Below the pieces are notes generated by a model. That model saw only the letters and a program-made list of their open reading frames with translations. It did not search any database and had not been told where the DNA came from. The position numbers were made by a program, and so were the translations under genes. This document shows, piece after piece, positions 49,974 to 57,106 of a DNA stretch of 64,000 nucleotides (position 1 is its first letter; each line of letters begins with the position of its first letter). Source of the stretch: Pandoraea capi (GTDB lineage Bacteria > Pseudomonadota > Gammaproteobacteria > Burkholderiales > Burkholderiaceae); NCBI RefSeq assembly GCF_902459735.1, contig NZ_CABPRV010000001.1:1-64000 (forward strand), written 5' to 3'.

Positions 49974-51002
49974 CTACGGCATGGACGCCGCCTCGCTACG
50001 TAGCGCCTCCATCCGCGCATAGAAACTGTCGACCTTCTGCTGGGCGTCCTGCCGCAGGGTGTCGTTGCGCGAGGCGAGCGCGTGCGCATGCTCCTGCGCC
50101 CCGGCTTCGCCCACCGAACGCGACACGTCCTGCACGAACTTGCACAGCGGATAACGCGCCCGACCGAAGGCCTGCAACGTGGCCTCGATGTCCCCGATGT
50201 TCTCCCCTCCCGCAAGCCGCTGCGCCAGCATCACGGCATCTTCCAGCGCCATCGCCCCGCCCTGCCCCATGAACGGGGTGGACGCGTGCGCGGCGTCGCC
50301 AATCACGATCACCCGCCCCCGATGCCATGGCAGCGGCATCGAGACTTCTTCGACGGCGGTGTACAGCACCTCCGAATCCGACGTCAACGTGTCGAGAAAC
50401 TGTCGCGCCGGACCGCCGAACTCCGCGAACCGGGCTTTCATCAACGCCGGCCATTCGGCACGGTCGTACCATGCGCCCGACGGCTCGGCCATCGTGCCGA
50501 ACACATACAGACGGTCGTCGCTGATCGGCATGATGCCGAGCCGCTTGCCCACGCCCATCATCATGATCTTCGCAGTGAGATCCCGGGGGCGCGCGTGCAC
50601 GCTGCGCCACACGCCCAACCCGGTATAGACGGGCGATATCGCGCCAGCGACAAGCTGGCGGACTTCCGAGCGAATGCCGTCCGCGCCAACGACGAGATCG
50701 TACTCGCCGACCGAGCCGTCCGAGAGCGCGACGCAAACCGAATGCGGTGCCTGTTGATCGATCGACACGGCCGTCGTGCCGAGCCGGATATCGACGTCCA
50801 GCGCGGCGATTCGTGCGGCGAGAATGCGATGCATCTCTGCGCGACGAATGCCGACGATCGGCGGGATACCGGGATATCGCGACGGATAAAAGGTGTCGAC
50901 GATCGGCTCTCCGTACTGATCGAGATAGACATTGCGTCCATCGGCGATGGCAAAGCCGCTCGTCCGGGATTCATGTCGGTACGGAAATGAGCGGAGGCAC
51001 AC
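49974..51002 (-). pseudogene. 5'-truncated FAD-dependent monooxygenase
   Basis: 342 residues matching the PHBH/UbiH-type flavin monooxygenases from the middle onward: the second FAD motif YDLVVGADGIRSEVR and the GD motif VIVIGDAAHASTPFMGQGGAMALEDAV are intact. The first about 70 residues, including the Rossmann GxGxxG that binds FAD, are absent; an in-frame stop lies at 51021-51023 and the other frames do not encode them. Only 121 bp separate the frame from the MFS stop, and this gap holds a pentanucleotide repeat. Probably a deletion remnant of a gene once paired with the MFS symporter. Confidence 0.7.
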
Positions 51003-51082: not shown

Positions 51083-51127
51083 CTCAACTCGACTCAACTC
51101 AACTCAACTCAACTCAACTCAACTCAA
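51083..51127. repeat. Pentanucleotide tandem repeat (CTCAA)9
   Basis: Nine units of CTCAA in 45 bp: unit 2 is CTCGA and the last seven (51093-51127) are perfect. The array overlaps the stop codon of the MFS gene (51124-51126) and lies 80 bp upstream of the truncated monooxygenase frame. Unit number is likely to vary by strand slippage. Confidence 0.95.
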
Positions 51128-52497
51128 CCCGATACCGTCTCCAGTTGCACGCCCTTCGTCTCCACGCCATAGCGCCAGACACACAAGGCGGCAATACCGA
51201 AGCAGATCGCGCCAAAGAGGAACACGGCATCGCTCGTCGACCATGTCACGATGGCGCCGACGAGCGTCGGCCCTAACAGCGCCCCGACCCGGCCGCAGAA
51301 CGACGCGTAGCCACACCCGGTCGCGCGCGCCCGAGAGGGAAACAACTCCGGCGTATAGGCGTATAGCACCGCCCACATGCCGAACGCGAAGAACTGCATG
51401 CTCGCACCGGTCGCGTAGATCGACCACTGCGGCGCCCCGGCGAGCAGCACCTGACCGAAGGCGTAGGTGGCGCACGCCCCGCCAACCAGCGTGCCGACGC
51501 AGGTCAGCTTTCGGCCCAATCGCTCGACCGACCATGCCGCGACCAGAAACCCCGGTATGCCGCCCACCGAGATGTACACCGTGAAGAGCACCGACTGGGT
51601 GACCACGATCCCCGCCGCCTGCTGGAGCGCCCCCAGCCACGTATTCAGTCCGTAAAAGCCGAGCAGGGCAAAGAACCACAACGCGCCGACCACCAGCGTG
51701 CGCCTGCGATAGCCGTCGGACCAGATCACGCGCAGGCCACGGGCTTCGCGTTGGCTCTCCGGCGCATTGGGCGCCACCTCCGGCAACGACGTCAGCCGGA
51801 GGCGGCGCATGACCGACGCCTCCACCGCACCGACCACGGCATCGGCGGCTTCATAGCGCCCTTGCGACTCCAGCCAGCGGGGCGATTCGGGCACATAGCG
51901 TCGAATGACGAACAGAAACAGCGCGGGGATCGCTTCCAGCGCAAACAGCACGCGCCAGCCATGATGCGCGAGCACGACGTAGGACAGCAGCCCGGCGCAG
52001 ATAAAGGCGAGTGGCCAGTTGCCGTCCATCAGCGCGAGATACTTGCCGCGCCGGTGCGTCGGAATGAACTCGGAGAGCAGCGTTTGCGCCAGCGGCAGTT
52101 CCATGCCCATCCCGATGCCCAGCAACAAGCGAAACGCGCCCAGTTCCACCGGTCCGGACGCTGTGGCGCAAAGCACGCTGCCGACGCCCCAGACGACCAT
52201 GCTGATCTGGAACACCGGTTTGCGTCCGAAACGGTCAGCGGCCATCCCCGAGCCGATCGCGCCGATCGCCATACCGACGAAACTCGCACTGCCGATCAGA
52301 CCGGCCTGCACGTTGGAGAGTGCGAACTCCGTCTTGATCGAACCGAGGACGAACGTCATCGTGGCCAGATCGATGTTGTCGAAGAAAAACGCCAACGCAA
52401 TCACGAGAAACAACCATCGGTGATACCCGCAAACGGGCAAGCGCTCCAACCGCTGCGCCGCCGTTATCCGGCCCACTTCCATCGAATGCATTTTCAT
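51124..52497 (-). CDS. MFS symporter (sugar/aromatic-acid transporter type)
   Basis: 457 residues, 12 spans. Motifs of the PF00083-like/AAHS group: NIDLATMTFVLGSIKTEF in span 1, GMAADRFGRKPVF (motif A), LLGIGMGMELPLAQTLLSEFIPTHRRGKYLA, and PESPRWLESQGRYEAADAV (in pieces). Uptake of an organic acid or sugar-like compound with protons is likely. GGAGGAG seven bases upstream supports the ATG at 52497. The adjacent monooxygenase remnant suggests it once belonged to a small catabolic unit. Confidence 0.88.
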   Translation of the reverse strand: MKMHSMEVGRITAAQRLERLPVCGYHRWLFLVIALAFFFDNIDLATMTFVLGSIKTEFALSNVQAGLIGSASFVGMAIGAIGSGMAADRFGRKPVFQISMVVWGVGSVLCATASGPVELGAFRLLLGIGMGMELPLAQTLLSEFIPTHRRGKYLALMDGNWPLAFICAGLLSYVVLAHHGWRVLFALEAIPALFLFVIRRYVPESPRWLESQGRYEAADAVVGAVEASVMRRLRLTSLPEVAPNAPESQREARGLRVIWSDGYRRRTLVVGALWFFALLGFYGLNTWLGALQQAAGIVVTQSVLFTVYISVGGIPGFLVAAWSVERLGRKLTCVGTLVGGACATYAFGQVLLAGAPQWSIYATGASMQFFAFGMWAVLYAYTPELFPSRARATGCGYASFCGRVGALLGPTLVGAIVTWSTSDAVFLFGAICFGIAALCVWRYGVETKGVQLETVSG

Positions 52498-52728
52498 ACG
52501 CCGCTCCTCCGTTTCGACCTGTCCCGTTGAATAGGCCGGCACCGTGAATCGGTACCGGATGCATCAATATCGGGCGCCAAAACTAGCGGGGCGCGCGGGA
52601 AAATGTCGTGGACAATCGGAGTTACGCCAAGATGCGCGAGGCGAGCGGTCCGCTGGCCTGCCGGTGCTTCGACGTGTCGCCTTGACGAGGAACACGCACA
52701 AGCGAGCGGGCGGACCGCATGACACCCA

Positions 52729-53352
52729 TCACGTCGGCTTGCGATGAAAACGCTGCGGATCGAACGCGCCTTCAGGCAGACCTGACAACGCGGCGCCCCG
52801 CTCGAACGGATATCGCAGATAGGGCGCCTGCGGTTGTCCCGGCGGCGAATACTGGCCGTCAGCGAGAATCCGCTTCTTGGCGCTGAGACTTTCGATGCGG
52901 CAGCGAATGGCCACAATCTGACTCGCCGCCCCCGGCTCGATGGGCGTGTAATCCTTCTCGGGACGAAACTTCCCCAACGCCGTGTTCTGATGCGCGATGA
53001 CGTCGTGCGTGTCCTCGCGCGTCGTCGCCTCGCATCGGGCAATCACGCTGTAGTACTCCAGGCTGGTGTTCTGCCCCTTGGGCGCTTTGAGCAACGCGAC
53101 CGGCCGGTCAACAACGATGGTGACGTGGGGATTCTCACGCAGCAAGCCCGAGAATTTGCCGAAGCGCGAACAGTGGATGAGAAACGCGTCGCCCACGAAG
53201 GTGAAGCTTTGCGGCACGACATAGGGAAACGGCGCGTCGTTCACGGCCACGCGACAAATCAGTTCGTCGCGCAGGAACGCTTCGATCGCCGGCCAATCGG
53301 TCCATGCCAGATCGGTGCGACGCATTTCGGCGTCTAGATAGTCAGGCGTCAT
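52729..53352 (-). CDS. NimA-like flavin (PNPOx-fold) protein
   Basis: 207 residues of the pyridoxamine-phosphate-oxidase split-barrel superfamily, closest to 5-nitroimidazole-resistance NimA/PF12900 proteins: CRVAVNDAPFPYVVPQSFTF, GDAFLIHCSRFGKFSGLLRENPHVTIVVD (in pieces). FMN or F420 binding and a redox or oxidase role are possible. The ATG at 53352 lies 11 bp inside the upstream purA-like gene with GGGA nine bases before it, so it is translationally coupled as third gene of the ridA-purA-nimA operon. Confidence 0.85.
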   Translation of the reverse strand: MTPDYLDAEMRRTDLAWTDWPAIEAFLRDELICRVAVNDAPFPYVVPQSFTFVGDAFLIHCSRFGKFSGLLRENPHVTIVVDRPVALLKAPKGQNTSLEYYSVIARCEATTREDTHDVIAHQNTALGKFRPEKDYTPIEPGAASQIVAIRCRIESLSAKKRILADGQYSPPGQPQAPYLRYPFERGAALSGLPEGAFDPQRFHRKPT

Positions 53353-54739
53353 CGTTGACAGTCCCTTCTGAAAGAATGAGGAGTTGCTCCCGGCGCGGGC
53401 CGAGCCCGATGCCTGCGATGCGGCAGGCCGTCGCCGTCTGCACGGCCGAGACGAACGCCTGAAGCGGCAATGGCAGGCGGGCAATGTCGGTCACATCGTC
53501 GGGAAGTTCGTCGAACGCGGGGAAGTGATACATCGCGGCGGCATGCGCGCCGCCCTCACCCTCGCTCTGCGGCATGAGCACCGGAATCTCTGCGTCGCGT
53601 GTGCCGGAGAAAAGCGACAGGCAGTCGCACTTGTTGAGATACCACTCGTTCACCCCGTGGCGCTCGATGACCTCGGCAAGCTCGGCGACATCGAGCCGTC
53701 CCAATCGTCGTGGACGCCCGCTCCCGGTGCCGTATTCGTTCGTCAGCATGCGCAGCGCCACGCCGACATCGAATTCATCTTCGGACCGGAGCAGTGCCTG
53801 CGGGTCGAAGCGGTCCCGCTCCTCGCGCCAGCCGATACCGCGCAGCGCGGCGTCGGCGCAATAGCGTGACGAGCGCTGCGCACCGAATTCGGTGCGAAAC
53901 GGCCCGGCGCCGACACGTGACGCAATGGCCTTCGCCACGCCGATGGTCTTGCGGTGATATCGCACCGGCAGATCGCCGCCGACGAAGGCAAACGCCGGGG
54001 CGGTGTGGCTGGATGTCACGTACGGCTGCTGTCCGCCGGTCACATCCAGCATCACCGACTGCGCGCCCTCGAAGAGCACACGCGCGCCGCGCTGGACATG
54101 CCGCGTCATCCACCGCGCATCCACCACCCCGACGCTCGGCTTGAGCCTCGCCCACGCCGCGCGCATGCTGGCGATGACGCTCCCGGTCGCCGCCCTCGCG
54201 GCGGGGGTGTCGTCATGCGTCGCGGCGTAGCGGGCCATCTGCTCGAATGCGCCCGCCTCGTCTGCCACCAGGTCGCGAAGCTGCACGACCGTTCGCACGC
54301 CGCCCTGCCATCGCAGCGACAGATCGGCATAGCACGGCCCGATGCCGTTACCGGTCGTACCGATCTGCGCGCCGTGTCGGGCATCGAAGTCGAGATGCCA
54401 CGGCTGGATGACCGCGCATTGCTCGCTCACATGGAGCCGCCCGTCCAGCGAAGCACCGGTACTGCGCAGCGCGTCGAGTTCGTCAGCCAGCTTGACGAGG
54501 CTGACCACGCACCCCGAGCCGATGTACATCAGCGTATGCGCGTGGAACACCCCCGAGGGCACCTGCGCGAGACGGGCGCTCCCCGTCGGCGTCGACACGG
54601 TGTGCCCGGCATTGGCCCCGCCATTGAAGCGGGCGACGATGTCGTAATCCGCCGCCAGCCGGTCGACGATCTTGGCCTTCCCTTCGTCGCCGTATTGCAG
54701 GCCGACGAGGACGTCGGCATATCCGGCGCGCGCGTTCAT
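53342..54739 (-). CDS. Adenylosuccinate synthetase-like ligase (PurA paralogue)
   Basis: 465 residues, longer than PurA (about 430). PurA motifs kept: LQYGDEGKAKIVD (catalytic Asp18, P-loop Lys21), FNGGANAGHT (His46), FEGAQ (226ish), the aspartate loop GTGSGRPRRLGRLD (336-350) and guanine-binding NKCD (369-372). Differences: GTTGNGIGP has Asn131 where PurA has the Arg that reaches the partner subunit's IMP; a segment of about 35 extra residues precedes NEYG; and the region after FEGAQ is divergent (MLDVTGGQQPYVTSSHTAPAF). I infer GTP-driven ligation of aspartate or a like amine to a non-IMP acceptor. ATGA overlap with ridA upstream. Confidence 0.85.
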   Translation of the reverse strand: MNARAGYADVLVGLQYGDEGKAKIVDRLAADYDIVARFNGGANAGHTVSTPTGSARLAQVPSGVFHAHTLMYIGSGCVVSLVKLADELDALRSTGASLDGRLHVSEQCAVIQPWHLDFDARHGAQIGTTGNGIGPCYADLSLRWQGGVRTVVQLRDLVADEAGAFEQMARYAATHDDTPAARAATGSVIASMRAAWARLKPSVGVVDARWMTRHVQRGARVLFEGAQSVMLDVTGGQQPYVTSSHTAPAFAFVGGDLPVRYHRKTIGVAKAIASRVGAGPFRTEFGAQRSSRYCADAALRGIGWREERDRFDPQALLRSEDEFDVGVALRMLTNEYGTGSGRPRRLGRLDVAELAEVIERHGVNEWYLNKCDCLSLFSGTRDAEIPVLMPQSEGEGGAHAAAMYHFPAFDELPDDVTDIARLPLPLQAFVSAVQTATACRIAGIGLGPRREQLLILSEGTVNDDA

Positions 54740-55200
54740 GAGACGAGAGAGAAAGTCGCTTCGACTTCGACCGGCGCGTTGAAGGGCAAACTCGCCACGC
54801 CGATGGCGATGCGGGCATGCTCACCCGCTTCCCCGAAGATCTGCGTGAGCAGTTCCGACGCCGCATTGATGATCGACGGCGCATCGGCAAACCCCTCCGA
54901 CGTCGCCACGAAACCGCCGACCCGCAGCACGCTCTCGATGCGGTCGAGTTGCCCGTTGGTCGCCAGATGCGCCCAGCCCAGCACGTTGAGCACGCACAGC
55001 CGTGCGGCATGCCGCGCGTCGTCGACCGACACGTCGGCGGGTACCTTGCCGGTGCAAACGGGAACGCCCGCGCGCACGGGCAACTGCCCCGACACGATGA
55101 GCGTATTGCCGTGGACCTTGAAGGGACGAAAAGCCGCGGGCGTTACCTTGAGATTGGGTAATTCCAGCCCTGCGGCTGCGATACGTTCGTAGATGTTCAC
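54736..55200 (-). CDS. RidA-family protein (YjgF/UK114, cd02199-like)
   Basis: 154 residues: LPNLKVTPAAFRPFKVHGNTLIVSGQLP, ADVSVDDARHAARLCVLNVLGW, FADAPSIINAASELL and ARIAIGVASLPFNAPVEVEATFSL (in pieces). The Arg that binds the imine/enamine substrate carboxylate in RidA is present (Arg130). GTG start at 55200 with GGAG five bases upstream; the in-frame ATG further up is less family-like. It overlaps the purA-like start (ATGA). RidA proteins hydrolyse reactive enamines/imines, which suggests an amine-generating or amino-acid step in this operon. Confidence 0.88.
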   Translation of the reverse strand: MNIYERIAAAGLELPNLKVTPAAFRPFKVHGNTLIVSGQLPVRAGVPVCTGKVPADVSVDDARHAARLCVLNVLGWAHLATNGQLDRIESVLRVGGFVATSEGFADAPSIINAASELLTQIFGEAGEHARIAIGVASLPFNAPVEVEATFSLVS

Positions 55201-55331
55201 GTCATCTCCACAATGAAGCCGCCACCGTGGCGGCACATTCATTCTGGAGGATCGAATGCGCCCGAATTGTCGGGCTGACGCAAACGTATGTCGCGCTTAC
55301 GCCAACTAGCGACGATGAGTCCTCACCGGCA

Positions 55332-56114
55332 TCAGGTGTCTTTCGGCCGGAAGAATTCGGTCGGCGTGCAGCCGAGCGCCTTGCGGAACATGGCGCTGAA
55401 CGCGCTGGTGCTGTCGTACCCGAGCGACGACGCGATGTCCGTCACCGGACGCTGCGCGCTCAGCATCTGCACCGCGACGAGCAGCCTCGCCTGCTGACGC
55501 CAGCGTGTGAACGTCATCCCCGTCTGCTCGGGAAACAGACGGATGATGGTGCGCTCGCTGGCGCCCACGACCTTGCTCCACGCGCACACCGACGTCTCTT
55601 CTGCCGGGTTCGCGAGAATCCACCGGCAAATGCGTGCGATGCGCTCGTCTGACGGCATGGGCAGGTGAAGCGGTTCGATACTGAGCGGACGGATCTCGTG
55701 AAACAGCAGATCCACCACGACCGCATCGCGGCTGCCCAGCGCATATTCGACAGGCATACGCGCGACGGCGGAAATGAGTTCGCGCAGCAGCGGCGACACG
55801 GACACGACGCAACAGTCGCTCGTATGCAGGGGCAACCGATCCGCGTCGAAATAGAGGGTGCGCATCTCGATGGCGCCCACCGCCTGCATGCAGTGCCGCA
55901 CGCCGGGCGGCACCCAGACCGCGCGCAGCGGCGGCACGACCCAGGTGCCCTTGGCGGTCGTAACGACGATGGAGCCCGTGATGGTGTAGATGAGCTGGCC
56001 GCGAACGTGCTCGTGATAGTCGATGAAAAATCGATCCGGCAAGTCGCGCGCCATGCCGCCGACGGGCCGCGCAATCTGCTGATAATCGTCCCGGTCTTCA
56101 CTCTTTCCGAACAT
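55332..56114 (-). CDS. AraC-family regulator
   Basis: 260 residues: N-terminal cupin (FFIDYHEHVRGQLIYT, WVVPPLRAVWVPPGVRHCMQAVG) typical of the small-molecule-sensing AraC group, C-terminal double helix-turn-helix ending DIASSLGYDSTSAFSAMFRKALGCTPTEFFR. It lies 131 bp upstream of the ridA-purA-nimA operon on the same strand and is divergent from the hydrolase gene, so it may control both. Confidence 0.9.
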   Translation of the reverse strand: MFGKSEDRDDYQQIARPVGGMARDLPDRFFIDYHEHVRGQLIYTITGSIVVTTAKGTWVVPPLRAVWVPPGVRHCMQAVGAIEMRTLYFDADRLPLHTSDCCVVSVSPLLRELISAVARMPVEYALGSRDAVVVDLLFHEIRPLSIEPLHLPMPSDERIARICRWILANPAEETSVCAWSKVVGASERTIIRLFPEQTGMTFTRWRQQARLLVAVQMLSAQRPVTDIASSLGYDSTSAFSAMFRKALGCTPTEFFRPKDT

Positions 56115-56239: not shown

Positions 56240-57106
56240 ATGCCGGTTTACCGTTCGTTTGATCAAGAGGCACTGGATCTGCAATACAACGTTCGTGCGG
56301 GGATTCCCGATCATCTCGATATCTTTGCGCGCTGGGCTCGCACCGGCGAAGCCTTTCGTCGTGCCAACGCGTTCAGGGAAGACATCGCGTACGGCGAAGA
56401 CGCGAAACAGACCTATGATCTGTTCCCCGCACAGCAGGCCGGACGACCCACGCTCGTCTTCATTCACGGCGGTTACTGGCAATCGCTGGACAAGTCCGAC
56501 TTCAGTTCGCTTGCAGGGCTGTATCAGACGCACGACATCAACTTCGTGGTCGTGAACTATCGGCTTGCGCCGGACGTGCGGATGGGAGACATCGTCGAGG
56601 ACAATCGTCAGGCGGTACTGCATCTTTATCGCAATGCCGCGTCGCTCGGCATCGAGCGCGATGCCCTGTTCGTCTGCGGGAGTTCGGCGGGCGGTCACCT
56701 GACGGCGGCACTGGCCGGCACGGATTGGGCCGCCTACGATGCGCCCGCCAATCTGATCAAGGGCGCTTGCGCCATCAGCGGGCTTTACGATCTGGAGCCT
56801 ATCCGTCTGTGCTATCTGAACAAGGCGGTTCAGCTCGATCGCGGTGAAGTGATGGATTTCAGCCCGATTCACCATCTTCCCAAAGTGCCGCTGCCGTACA
56901 TCCTCAGCGTGGGTGGCGACGAGTCGGACGAATTCCATCGGCTACAGGCGCAGTTTCAGACGCTGCTGGACGACCACGGCCTGAACGTCAAGATCGCGCG
57001 TCAGCGCGACGGGCATCACTTCGATGCCGTCGACCGCGTGGGTCAAGCCGGTAACGAACTGTCAGACGCCATTCTCGAGATGATCGGCGTGACGGCTCGC
57101 CCGTAA
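56240..57106 (+). CDS. Alpha/beta hydrolase (arylformamidase-like)
   Basis: 288 residues. HGGYW at 76-80 forms the oxyanion turn, GSSAGGH at 147-153 gives nucleophile Ser149, VGGDESDEF supplies the acid and RDGHHF the His. The HGGYWQSLDKSDFS region is like the alpha/beta-hydrolase kynurenine formamidases, so an N-formyl or other amide/ester substrate is plausible. GAGG precedes the ATG at 56240. Divergent from the AraC gene; convergent with cobF (4 bp gap). Confidence 0.85.
   Translation: MPVYRSFDQEALDLQYNVRAGIPDHLDIFARWARTGEAFRRANAFREDIAYGEDAKQTYDLFPAQQAGRPTLVFIHGGYWQSLDKSDFSSLAGLYQTHDINFVVVNYRLAPDVRMGDIVEDNRQAVLHLYRNAASLGIERDALFVCGSSAGGHLTAALAGTDWAAYDAPANLIKGACAISGLYDLEPIRLCYLNKAVQLDRGEVMDFSPIHHLPKVPLPYILSVGGDESDEFHRLQAQFQTLLDDHGLNVKIARQRDGHHFDAVDRVGQAGNELSDAILEMIGVTARP

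Follow-up and report, generated by a model that had tools for sequence, protein, structure and literature searches.

A 64,000-nucleotide stretch of the Pandoraea capi genome (NZ_CABPRV010000001.1, positions 1 to 64,000; hereafter the window) carries a six-gene unit in which a paralogue of adenylosuccinate synthetase (PurA) accompanies a divergent alpha/beta hydrolase, an AraC-cupin regulator, a RidA protein, a pyridoxamine-5'-phosphate-oxidase-family (PPOX) protein and an MFS transporter (Table 1). We tentatively interpret this unit as an inducible module for the uptake and breakdown of a small organic acid, spread between replicons, in which the PurA-like protein would be an accessory, inhibitor-tolerant adenylosuccinate synthetase. 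A preliminary description of the window had recognized only the RidA, PurA-like and flavoprotein genes, as an operon of unknown purpose.

The unit was compared with 25 further loci of the Burkholderiaceae (24 genomes and one plasmid), in which genes were called, clustered and then verified by tblastn with the window proteins. The hydrolase, AraC regulator, RidA and PurA-like genes were each detected in all 25 loci, and the PPOX and MFS genes in 24, both being absent only from L106, which stops at a contig end. All six genes are present in 24 of the loci, two of which hold partial genes (RidA and MFS in L100; PurA, matched over residues 1-207, in L107), while L095 and L103 contain a second hydrolase-like copy, split over two frames in L095. 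A conserved neighbourhood in this family, envisaged in the preliminary description, was thus found, and the three minus-strand genes are indeed chained by an ATGA overlap (54736-54739, ridA/PurA-like gene) and an 11-base overlap (53342-53352, PurA-like/PPOX gene). However, the trio is not the whole unit, given the occurrence of the regulator and hydrolase in 25/25 and of the transporter in 24/25 other loci.

About 15 different settings of the module were distinguished, four of them among six Pandoraea genomes, with flanks judged by shared protein clusters or, for the Caballeronia zhejiangensis plasmid, by annotation. Flanking genes are the same on both sides in Pandoraea anhela, whose PurA-like protein is 87% identical to that of the window; a pattern scan of the whole collection gave 36 pattern matches, leading to this P. 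anhela locus only. Hydrolase identity ranges from 59 to 93% across the 25 loci. Outside Pandoraea, the PPOX protein is more conserved (72-80% identity) than the hydrolase, the RidA protein (53-71%) and the PurA-like protein (53-60%), the last two varying to a similar extent.

The AraC gene and ridA are separated by a TTGGCGTNNNCGCGACA-type direct repeat whose period is 21 bp; its full pattern, as read in the window, occurs once in the window. It was examined in 18 loci (the window and 17 of the 25 others, near-copies being omitted), and a repeat pair was scored in 16 of the 18 against 1.4% of mononucleotide shuffles, a test that is partly circular because the motif was read from the same related loci. 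Of the two misses, L068 has both copies but the count began at the second, and in L093 a site on the opposite strand was chosen. Such a repeat would suit an operator of an AraC-type regulator, to which the protein would be expected to bind.

A related version of the module was found, via its PPOX gene, on a plasmid of Paracoccus yeei, where a hydrolase, a three-gene TRAP transporter, a RidA gene and a PPOX gene lie between insertion sequences, with an AraC-type gene on the other strand. Identities to the window proteins are 53% for the hydrolase, 54% for RidA, 58% for PPOX and 46% for the AraC regulator, and the binding-protein-dependent TRAP system takes the place of the MFS transporter. PurA was not found at E<=10 in the 188-kb plasmid record, in a search confined to that record and run without a positive control. 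In this direction also the trio proves too narrow a unit. Since the Paracoccus version has the TRAP transporter and no PurA, the core of the module looks like an uptake and breakdown system to which the PurA-like protein is accessory. More distant hydrolase relatives (31-38% identity) were checked on 6 plasmids of the 12 records below 40%; uptake genes are adjacent or a few genes off, being an ABC system five times and an MFS gene once. Some of these loci also contain ring-hydroxylating dioxygenases, tryptophan-breakdown genes, or RidA together with a flavin reductase.

The P. capi genome (5.85 Mb) harbors three full PF00709 copies: a canonical PurA on C5 scores 600 bits, a second, PurA-like protein encoded on C3 scores 320 bits, and the protein of the window 301 bits. 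The idea that the window copy could be the only purA of the genome is dismissed by the canonical gene on C5, a gene elsewhere in the genome of the kind that the preliminary description had named as support; a full canonical purA also occurs in 22 of the 24 other window-type carriers, being in pieces in G680 and not seen in G684, a genome 78% complete. The C3 and window copies share 49% identity along almost the full length, and the canonical proteins among the matches listed align with the window copy at 36-45% over about residues 10-285.

Occurrence was analyzed in genome samples of Pseudomonadota, supplemented by collections of plasmids and phages that include a number of other taxa. Relatives at E<=1e-60 are present in 28 of 32 genomes of the genus; typed by identity, all 28 carry the C3 type (second type, 46-52%), and six of them, P. 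capi included, also carry the window type (67-100%). In the family sample of 398 genomes, 47 match at E<=1e-55, of which 19 lie outside the genus, at 54-61%. A 398-genome sample of Pseudomonadota yielded one further genome at that threshold, G778 (45%, residues 10-285 only), the sequence of which groups with canonical proteins in the tree. Nothing beyond P. capi itself was recovered with the second type as query from a 369-genome class sample, nor with the PPOX gene at E<=1e-40 from 378 genomes. Relatives of PurA in phages are remote (219 bits for the best PHROG; 20 phage records, all below 60% identity).

A maximum-likelihood tree was built from 42 canonical sequences together with 24 of the window type and 12 of the second type; of the window type, L070 (called too short) and L107 (interrupted) were dropped, as was L119 of the second type, and the copy on the Caballeronia plasmid was left out. 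The 36 sequences of both PurA-like types separate from the 42 canonical ones at 100/100, with support of 99/97 for the window type and 79/87 for the second type. The separate group that the preliminary description had named as support is therefore present; its depth and the position of the root are unsure because long branches meet there, as the program warned. A further PurA, encoded on the large replicons L128 (Burkholderia stagnalis) and L130 (B. arboris), groups with three alphaproteobacterial PurAs, apart from the window type.

Residues were counted in 25 window-type and 7 second-type rows (L065 and L066 being one genome), aligned with E. coli PurA from NC_000913. Asp18 and His46 correspond to the catalytic Asp13 and His41 of E. 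coli, Arg342 and Arg344 to Arg303 and Arg305 of the aspartate loop, and the NKCD motif is present, all as previously noted; the Asp13 counterpart is kept in every row with a residue there. In contrast, Asn131, which had been taken to replace E. coli Arg143, was mis-mapped. It aligns with E. coli Arg131 (TTGRGIGP to TTGNGIGP), where the basic residue is lost in 32/32 rows, and the Arg143 position keeps Arg in 25/25 window-type and 7/7 second-type rows. Next to this position lies a 6-residue insertion, so that the counterpart is window Arg143 or Arg149, both invariant in a 15-row alignment. The larger insertion, put earlier at about 35 residues, is real and has 36; it lies just N-terminal of the aspartate loop and holds the RSxxYC motif and invariant residues.

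Substrate contacts were taken from partial accounts of the Helicobacter pylori enzyme for inosine monophosphate (IMP; PMC11571797), of the Plasmodium enzyme 1P9B for hadacidin (LigPlot table of a docking paper, PMC6973190) and, for the residues presumed to contact guanosine diphosphate (GDP), from PMC11276676; their numbers were transferred to E. coli by spacing, without aligning the source sequences, and the equivalence of H. pylori 400-402 was assumed. On this numbering all eight listed IMP contacts (Asp13, Asn38, Gly127, Thr129, Arg143', Thr239, Val273, Arg303) are kept as consensus, including the four residues touching the 5'-phosphate, with one Met at position 239 among the 25 window-type rows. 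Contacts to aspartate/hadacidin are kept at 8 of 10 positions, the two that differ (299 and 300) varying also among the 6 canonical reference rows, and those to guanosine triphosphate (GTP) or GDP at 8 of 11, the changes being Gly17 to Ala, Ser414 to Gly and Thr415 to Leu. Over the union of contacts, 19 of 24 positions equal the canonical PurA of the same genome, compared with 144 of 430 in the alignment as a whole (p 3e-6, hypergeometric), and 20 of 24 are invariant across the 32 rows, against 115 of 430. Because the IMP contacts and most of the aspartate and GTP contacts are kept, the protein most likely still makes adenylosuccinate. The retention of all eight IMP contacts makes the non-IMP acceptor of the preliminary description less likely and removes its residue argument; its second option, an antimetabolite tolerance module, would appear to fit better.

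The second PurA-like gene belongs to an eight-gene operon (C3:637355-646146; L004 6856-15647) followed by a convergent gene for a LuxR-type regulator. The operon encodes SbnA, SbnB, the PurA-like protein, and AurF-type, carbamoyltransferase-like, threonine-synthase-like, DAO-type oxidase and flavin-reductase-like proteins. SbnA and SbnB both exceed the cut-offs of the respective NCBIfam equivalogs, which makes L-2,3-diaminopropionate the likely starting compound of the pathway; the N-acetylornithine-carbamoyltransferase-like (271.5 bits, cut-off 288) and threonine-synthase-like (238 bits, cut-off 303) proteins score below theirs. Thirteen Pandoraea loci were compared, out of 28 genomes with the type, and in 11 of them the order and position of the eight genes are identical; in L119 the PurA-like gene was called in pieces, and in L121 SbnA and SbnB form one frame and the LuxR gene was not called. 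The operon may make an N-oxygenated amino acid. A literature search found no description of it, which is weak evidence that it is undescribed.

Family searches within the module and the second operon revealed no adenylosuccinate-lyase-like gene in either. Also, extra purB-like copies accompany neither the module nor the second operon: among 15 genomes the carriers G366 and G477 have one copy only, and G321, G328 and G349, which contain neither PurA-like gene, have two or three. Since there is no dedicated lyase in either operon and no matching second purB, a product usable by the ordinary PurB is the simplest case.

The proposed course of events relies largely on protein families. The transporter would import an organic acid, the hydrolase would cleave an amide or ester bond, the PPOX protein would carry out a flavin redox step at a nitrogen, and RidA, in which the active-site Arg is present, would hydrolyse the resulting imine or enamine. 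In the Burkholderiaceae version the PurA-like protein would be an accessory that, as a guess, makes adenylosuccinate usable by the ordinary PurB and sustains the synthesis of adenosine monophosphate (AMP) when the housekeeping PurA is inhibited by the substrate or a like compound. The model for such an inhibitor would be an antimetabolite resembling aspartate, for example hadacidin or alanosine, and the sister protein in the Pandoraea SbnA/SbnB operon would protect the producer itself. This protection is a guess, made because the contacts are kept, no dedicated lyase was found, PurA was not found on the Paracoccus plasmid, and the sister gene lies in an operon that may make an N-oxygenated amino acid.

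Several observations weigh against this interpretation. The base composition of the module resembles that of its flanks and gives no sign of recent transfer, and the direct repeat was not seen in the Paracoccus plasmid. The PurA-like clade sits on a very long branch, and >=90% of its rows differ at 27 positions that the 6 canonical rows have in common, including Arg131 (to Asn), which seems to exceed what tolerance alone would need. The insertion ahead of the aspartate loop could reshape the donor site; together with the strong divergence it would suit a new ligase better than a tolerance copy. The contact count does not prove IMP as acceptor, because changed enzymes such as PurZ also keep many active-site residues, and a basis of tolerance is not visible in the sequence because the hadacidin contacts are nearly all kept. 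In addition, the family names in the C3 operon do not match the genes named for alanosine.

Part of this evidence points to a new ligase, in which PurA chemistry (GTP phosphorylates a carbonyl and an amine displaces the phosphate) would be applied to another acceptor or amine, making it a genuine reaction both in the breakdown pathway and in the Pandoraea operon. The separate group on its long branch, the insertion with invariant residues beside the aspartate loop, the loss of basic residue 131 in every row, the tight linkage to RidA and PPOX, the sister gene inside an apparent biosynthetic operon and a conservation below that of PPOX outside Pandoraea would all be in line with such an enzyme. 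Against it stand the eight IMP contacts, the four at the 5'-phosphate included, most of the aspartate contacts, and a Paracoccus module that does without PurA, and we consider it rather unlikely. A broader form of this idea, which we consider clearly unlikely, is that in cellular organisms the PurA fold has a second functional branch represented by both types. These GTP-driven ligases, released from housekeeping purine synthesis, would join aspartate or another amine in an L-diaminopropionate-derived natural-product pathway (the Pandoraea operon) and in a matching uptake and breakdown module (that of the window), and sister enzymes would then be found in the makers and the users of a single small molecule.

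The conservation of most contacts for all three substrates would also be expected of a plain backup or flux isozyme, supplying adenylosuccinate for a raised AMP demand or for C4-acid feeding with no inhibitor involved, and the malic enzyme gene after the module on the Caballeronia plasmid would fit C4-acid metabolism. That gene is seen only there and, by reading of the translation, at the end of L091; a full-length canonical purA is present in 22 of 24 other carriers, and the long branch would be odd for a plain backup, making this explanation improbable. A decaying or inactive paralogue hitch-hiking in the operon, to which the conservation below PPOX, the truncated match in L107 and a second-type copy in G316 that is called in fragments and has no match before residue 81 might point, is highly improbable given the invariance of 20 of 24 contact positions and a matched frame that, in the rows listed, holds no internal stop save one TGA each in G435 and G651.

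Compared with these explanations, an inhibitor-tolerant synthetase attached to an inducible uptake and breakdown module is the reading we prefer, although tentatively. If the PurA-like protein is a tolerance copy, the Pandoraea operon with SbnA, SbnB and the AurF-type gene might produce an antimetabolite that acts on adenylosuccinate synthetase, for the finding of which both the target and the tolerant enzyme are at hand. If it is a new ligase, the PurA fold would be extended beyond IMP and deoxyguanosine monophosphate (dGMP). The regulator of the module offers a route to the inducer.

Table 1. Features of the six-gene module in the window (positions in the 64,000-nucleotide stretch).
Feature	Position	Strand	Remarks
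Alpha/beta hydrolase	56240..57106	+	288 aa, HGGYW and GSSAGG motifs; PF20434/PF07859; divergent from the rest of the module
AraC-family regulator with N-terminal cupin-type sensor domain	55332..56114	-	PF12833, PF02311
Tandem direct repeat, 21-bp period, putative operator of the AraC regulator	55268..55304	-	upstream of ridA
RidA-family protein	54736..55200	-	154 aa, GTG start; PF14588 78 bits, PF01042 42 bits
PurA-like protein, window type	53342..54739	-	465 aa; PF00709 301.4 bits
36-residue insertion of the PurA-like protein (residues 288-323)	53771..53878	-	precedes the aspartate-binding loop; conserved RSxxYC
PPOX protein	52729..53352	-	207 aa; PF12900 82.6 bits
MFS transporter, aromatic-acid/H+ symporter type	51124..52542	-	TIGR00895; start near 52497 suggested by relatives

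The Pfam scores of the RidA, PurA-like and PPOX proteins in Table 1 are all above the Pfam cut-offs (27 bits for PF00709), while the PurA-like protein falls below both NCBIfam purA equivalogs (279.6 against 402 and 236.1 against 395.55). The MFS transporter scores 268 bits with TIGR00895, under the cut-off of 418.55. Among solved structures, the hydrolase is closest to chains 9n8r ('Lipase 1') and 2pbl, kynurenine formamidase 4e11 ranking lower, and RidA is closest to 3d01, followed by PA0814 (9bk9). In the window RidA and 7 aligned relatives, Arg is found at the position of E. coli RidA Arg105 (ridA from NC_000913), which we take to be the active-site Arg of Rid deaminases. The protein scores above the PF14588 cut-off but below that of TIGR00004 (23.4 against 106.25), suggesting a different Rid subgroup. 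The PPOX protein, called NimA-like earlier, would bind flavin by family membership; it scores above the PF12900 cut-off, and its match to a chain named 5-nitroimidazole antibiotic resistance protein reaches just E 0.03. PADLOC models gave no match for four of the window proteins.

A monooxygenase dependent on flavin adenine dinucleotide is encoded beside the module (49974-51002), and its N-terminal part seems to be missing, as the Pfam match begins at profile position 98 of 349. It was rejected as a member, with 0 tblastn matches at 1e-6 in the 25 other loci. About nine copies of the 5-base repeat CTCAA lie where the MFS gene ends and immediately beyond it (51083-51128). The PPOX and MFS genes of one Pandoraea genome (L068 9540-13527) are separated by a LysR-like gene and two adhesin-fragment-like genes, so named from their translations without a family search. 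Behind the module of the Caballeronia zhejiangensis plasmid come a gene for an NADP malic enzyme and a second RidA gene (L111 15561-18364), and locus L091 ends at the same spot in an apparent malic-enzyme-like start, as read from the translation.

The window protein shares with E. coli PurA (TIGR00184, NF002223) the PF00709 fold family, the catalytic Asp and His, the eight IMP contacts, an NKxD-type motif and the Arg pair of the aspartate loop. It differs from canonical PurA in its separate tree group, sub-equivalog score, 36-residue insertion and Arg131 to Asn change, and in being part of a module, whereas the canonical purA lies elsewhere in the genome. PurZ, the phage 2-aminoadenylosuccinate synthetase, is likewise a PurA paralogue with a changed role. 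Its characteristic Ser presumably occupies the position of PurA Asp13; a passage of PMC8342488 places this residue, S23 in the enzyme of phage S-2L, near the 2-amino group of guanine. A PurZ-like dGMP enzyme was rejected for the window protein, which keeps Asp13 and scores 94.3 bits with NF038379 against a cut-off of 300.

L-alanosine has been used as an inhibitor of purine synthesis. According to PMC11705231, it is made by the aln/ala cluster from L-diaminopropionate with N-hydroxylation. The C3 operon would start from the same compound, but by family names it contains no CreD, CreE, AlnA or AlnG, and has AurF-type, carbamoyltransferase-like and threonine-synthase-like genes instead. Judged by these gene families, alanosine itself is an unlikely product, though not an excluded one, because some alanosine clusters also do without Cre genes; since the named genes differ, alanosine is used here as a model only.

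Resistant target copies provide a further parallel. ArgK of phaseolotoxin producers is one such copy within a gene cluster (PMC4530439, in part), and a PurA homologue is noted in Hypoxylon clusters in a portion of PMC12616698. As in these cases, a second copy of an enzyme of primary metabolism stands beside genes of specialised metabolism; resistant copies, however, lie in producer clusters, whereas the window copy lies in a module of uptake type.

In the Rut operon for pyrimidine breakdown, a Rid protein occurs together with an alpha/beta hydrolase, a transporter and flavin enzymes. Although by family assignment it has neither a RutA-type monooxygenase nor a RutB-type amidohydrolase, and its PurA-like protein is without a Rut counterpart, the module of the window shares with that operon the combination of a Rid protein, an alpha/beta hydrolase, a flavin-type enzyme and a transporter.

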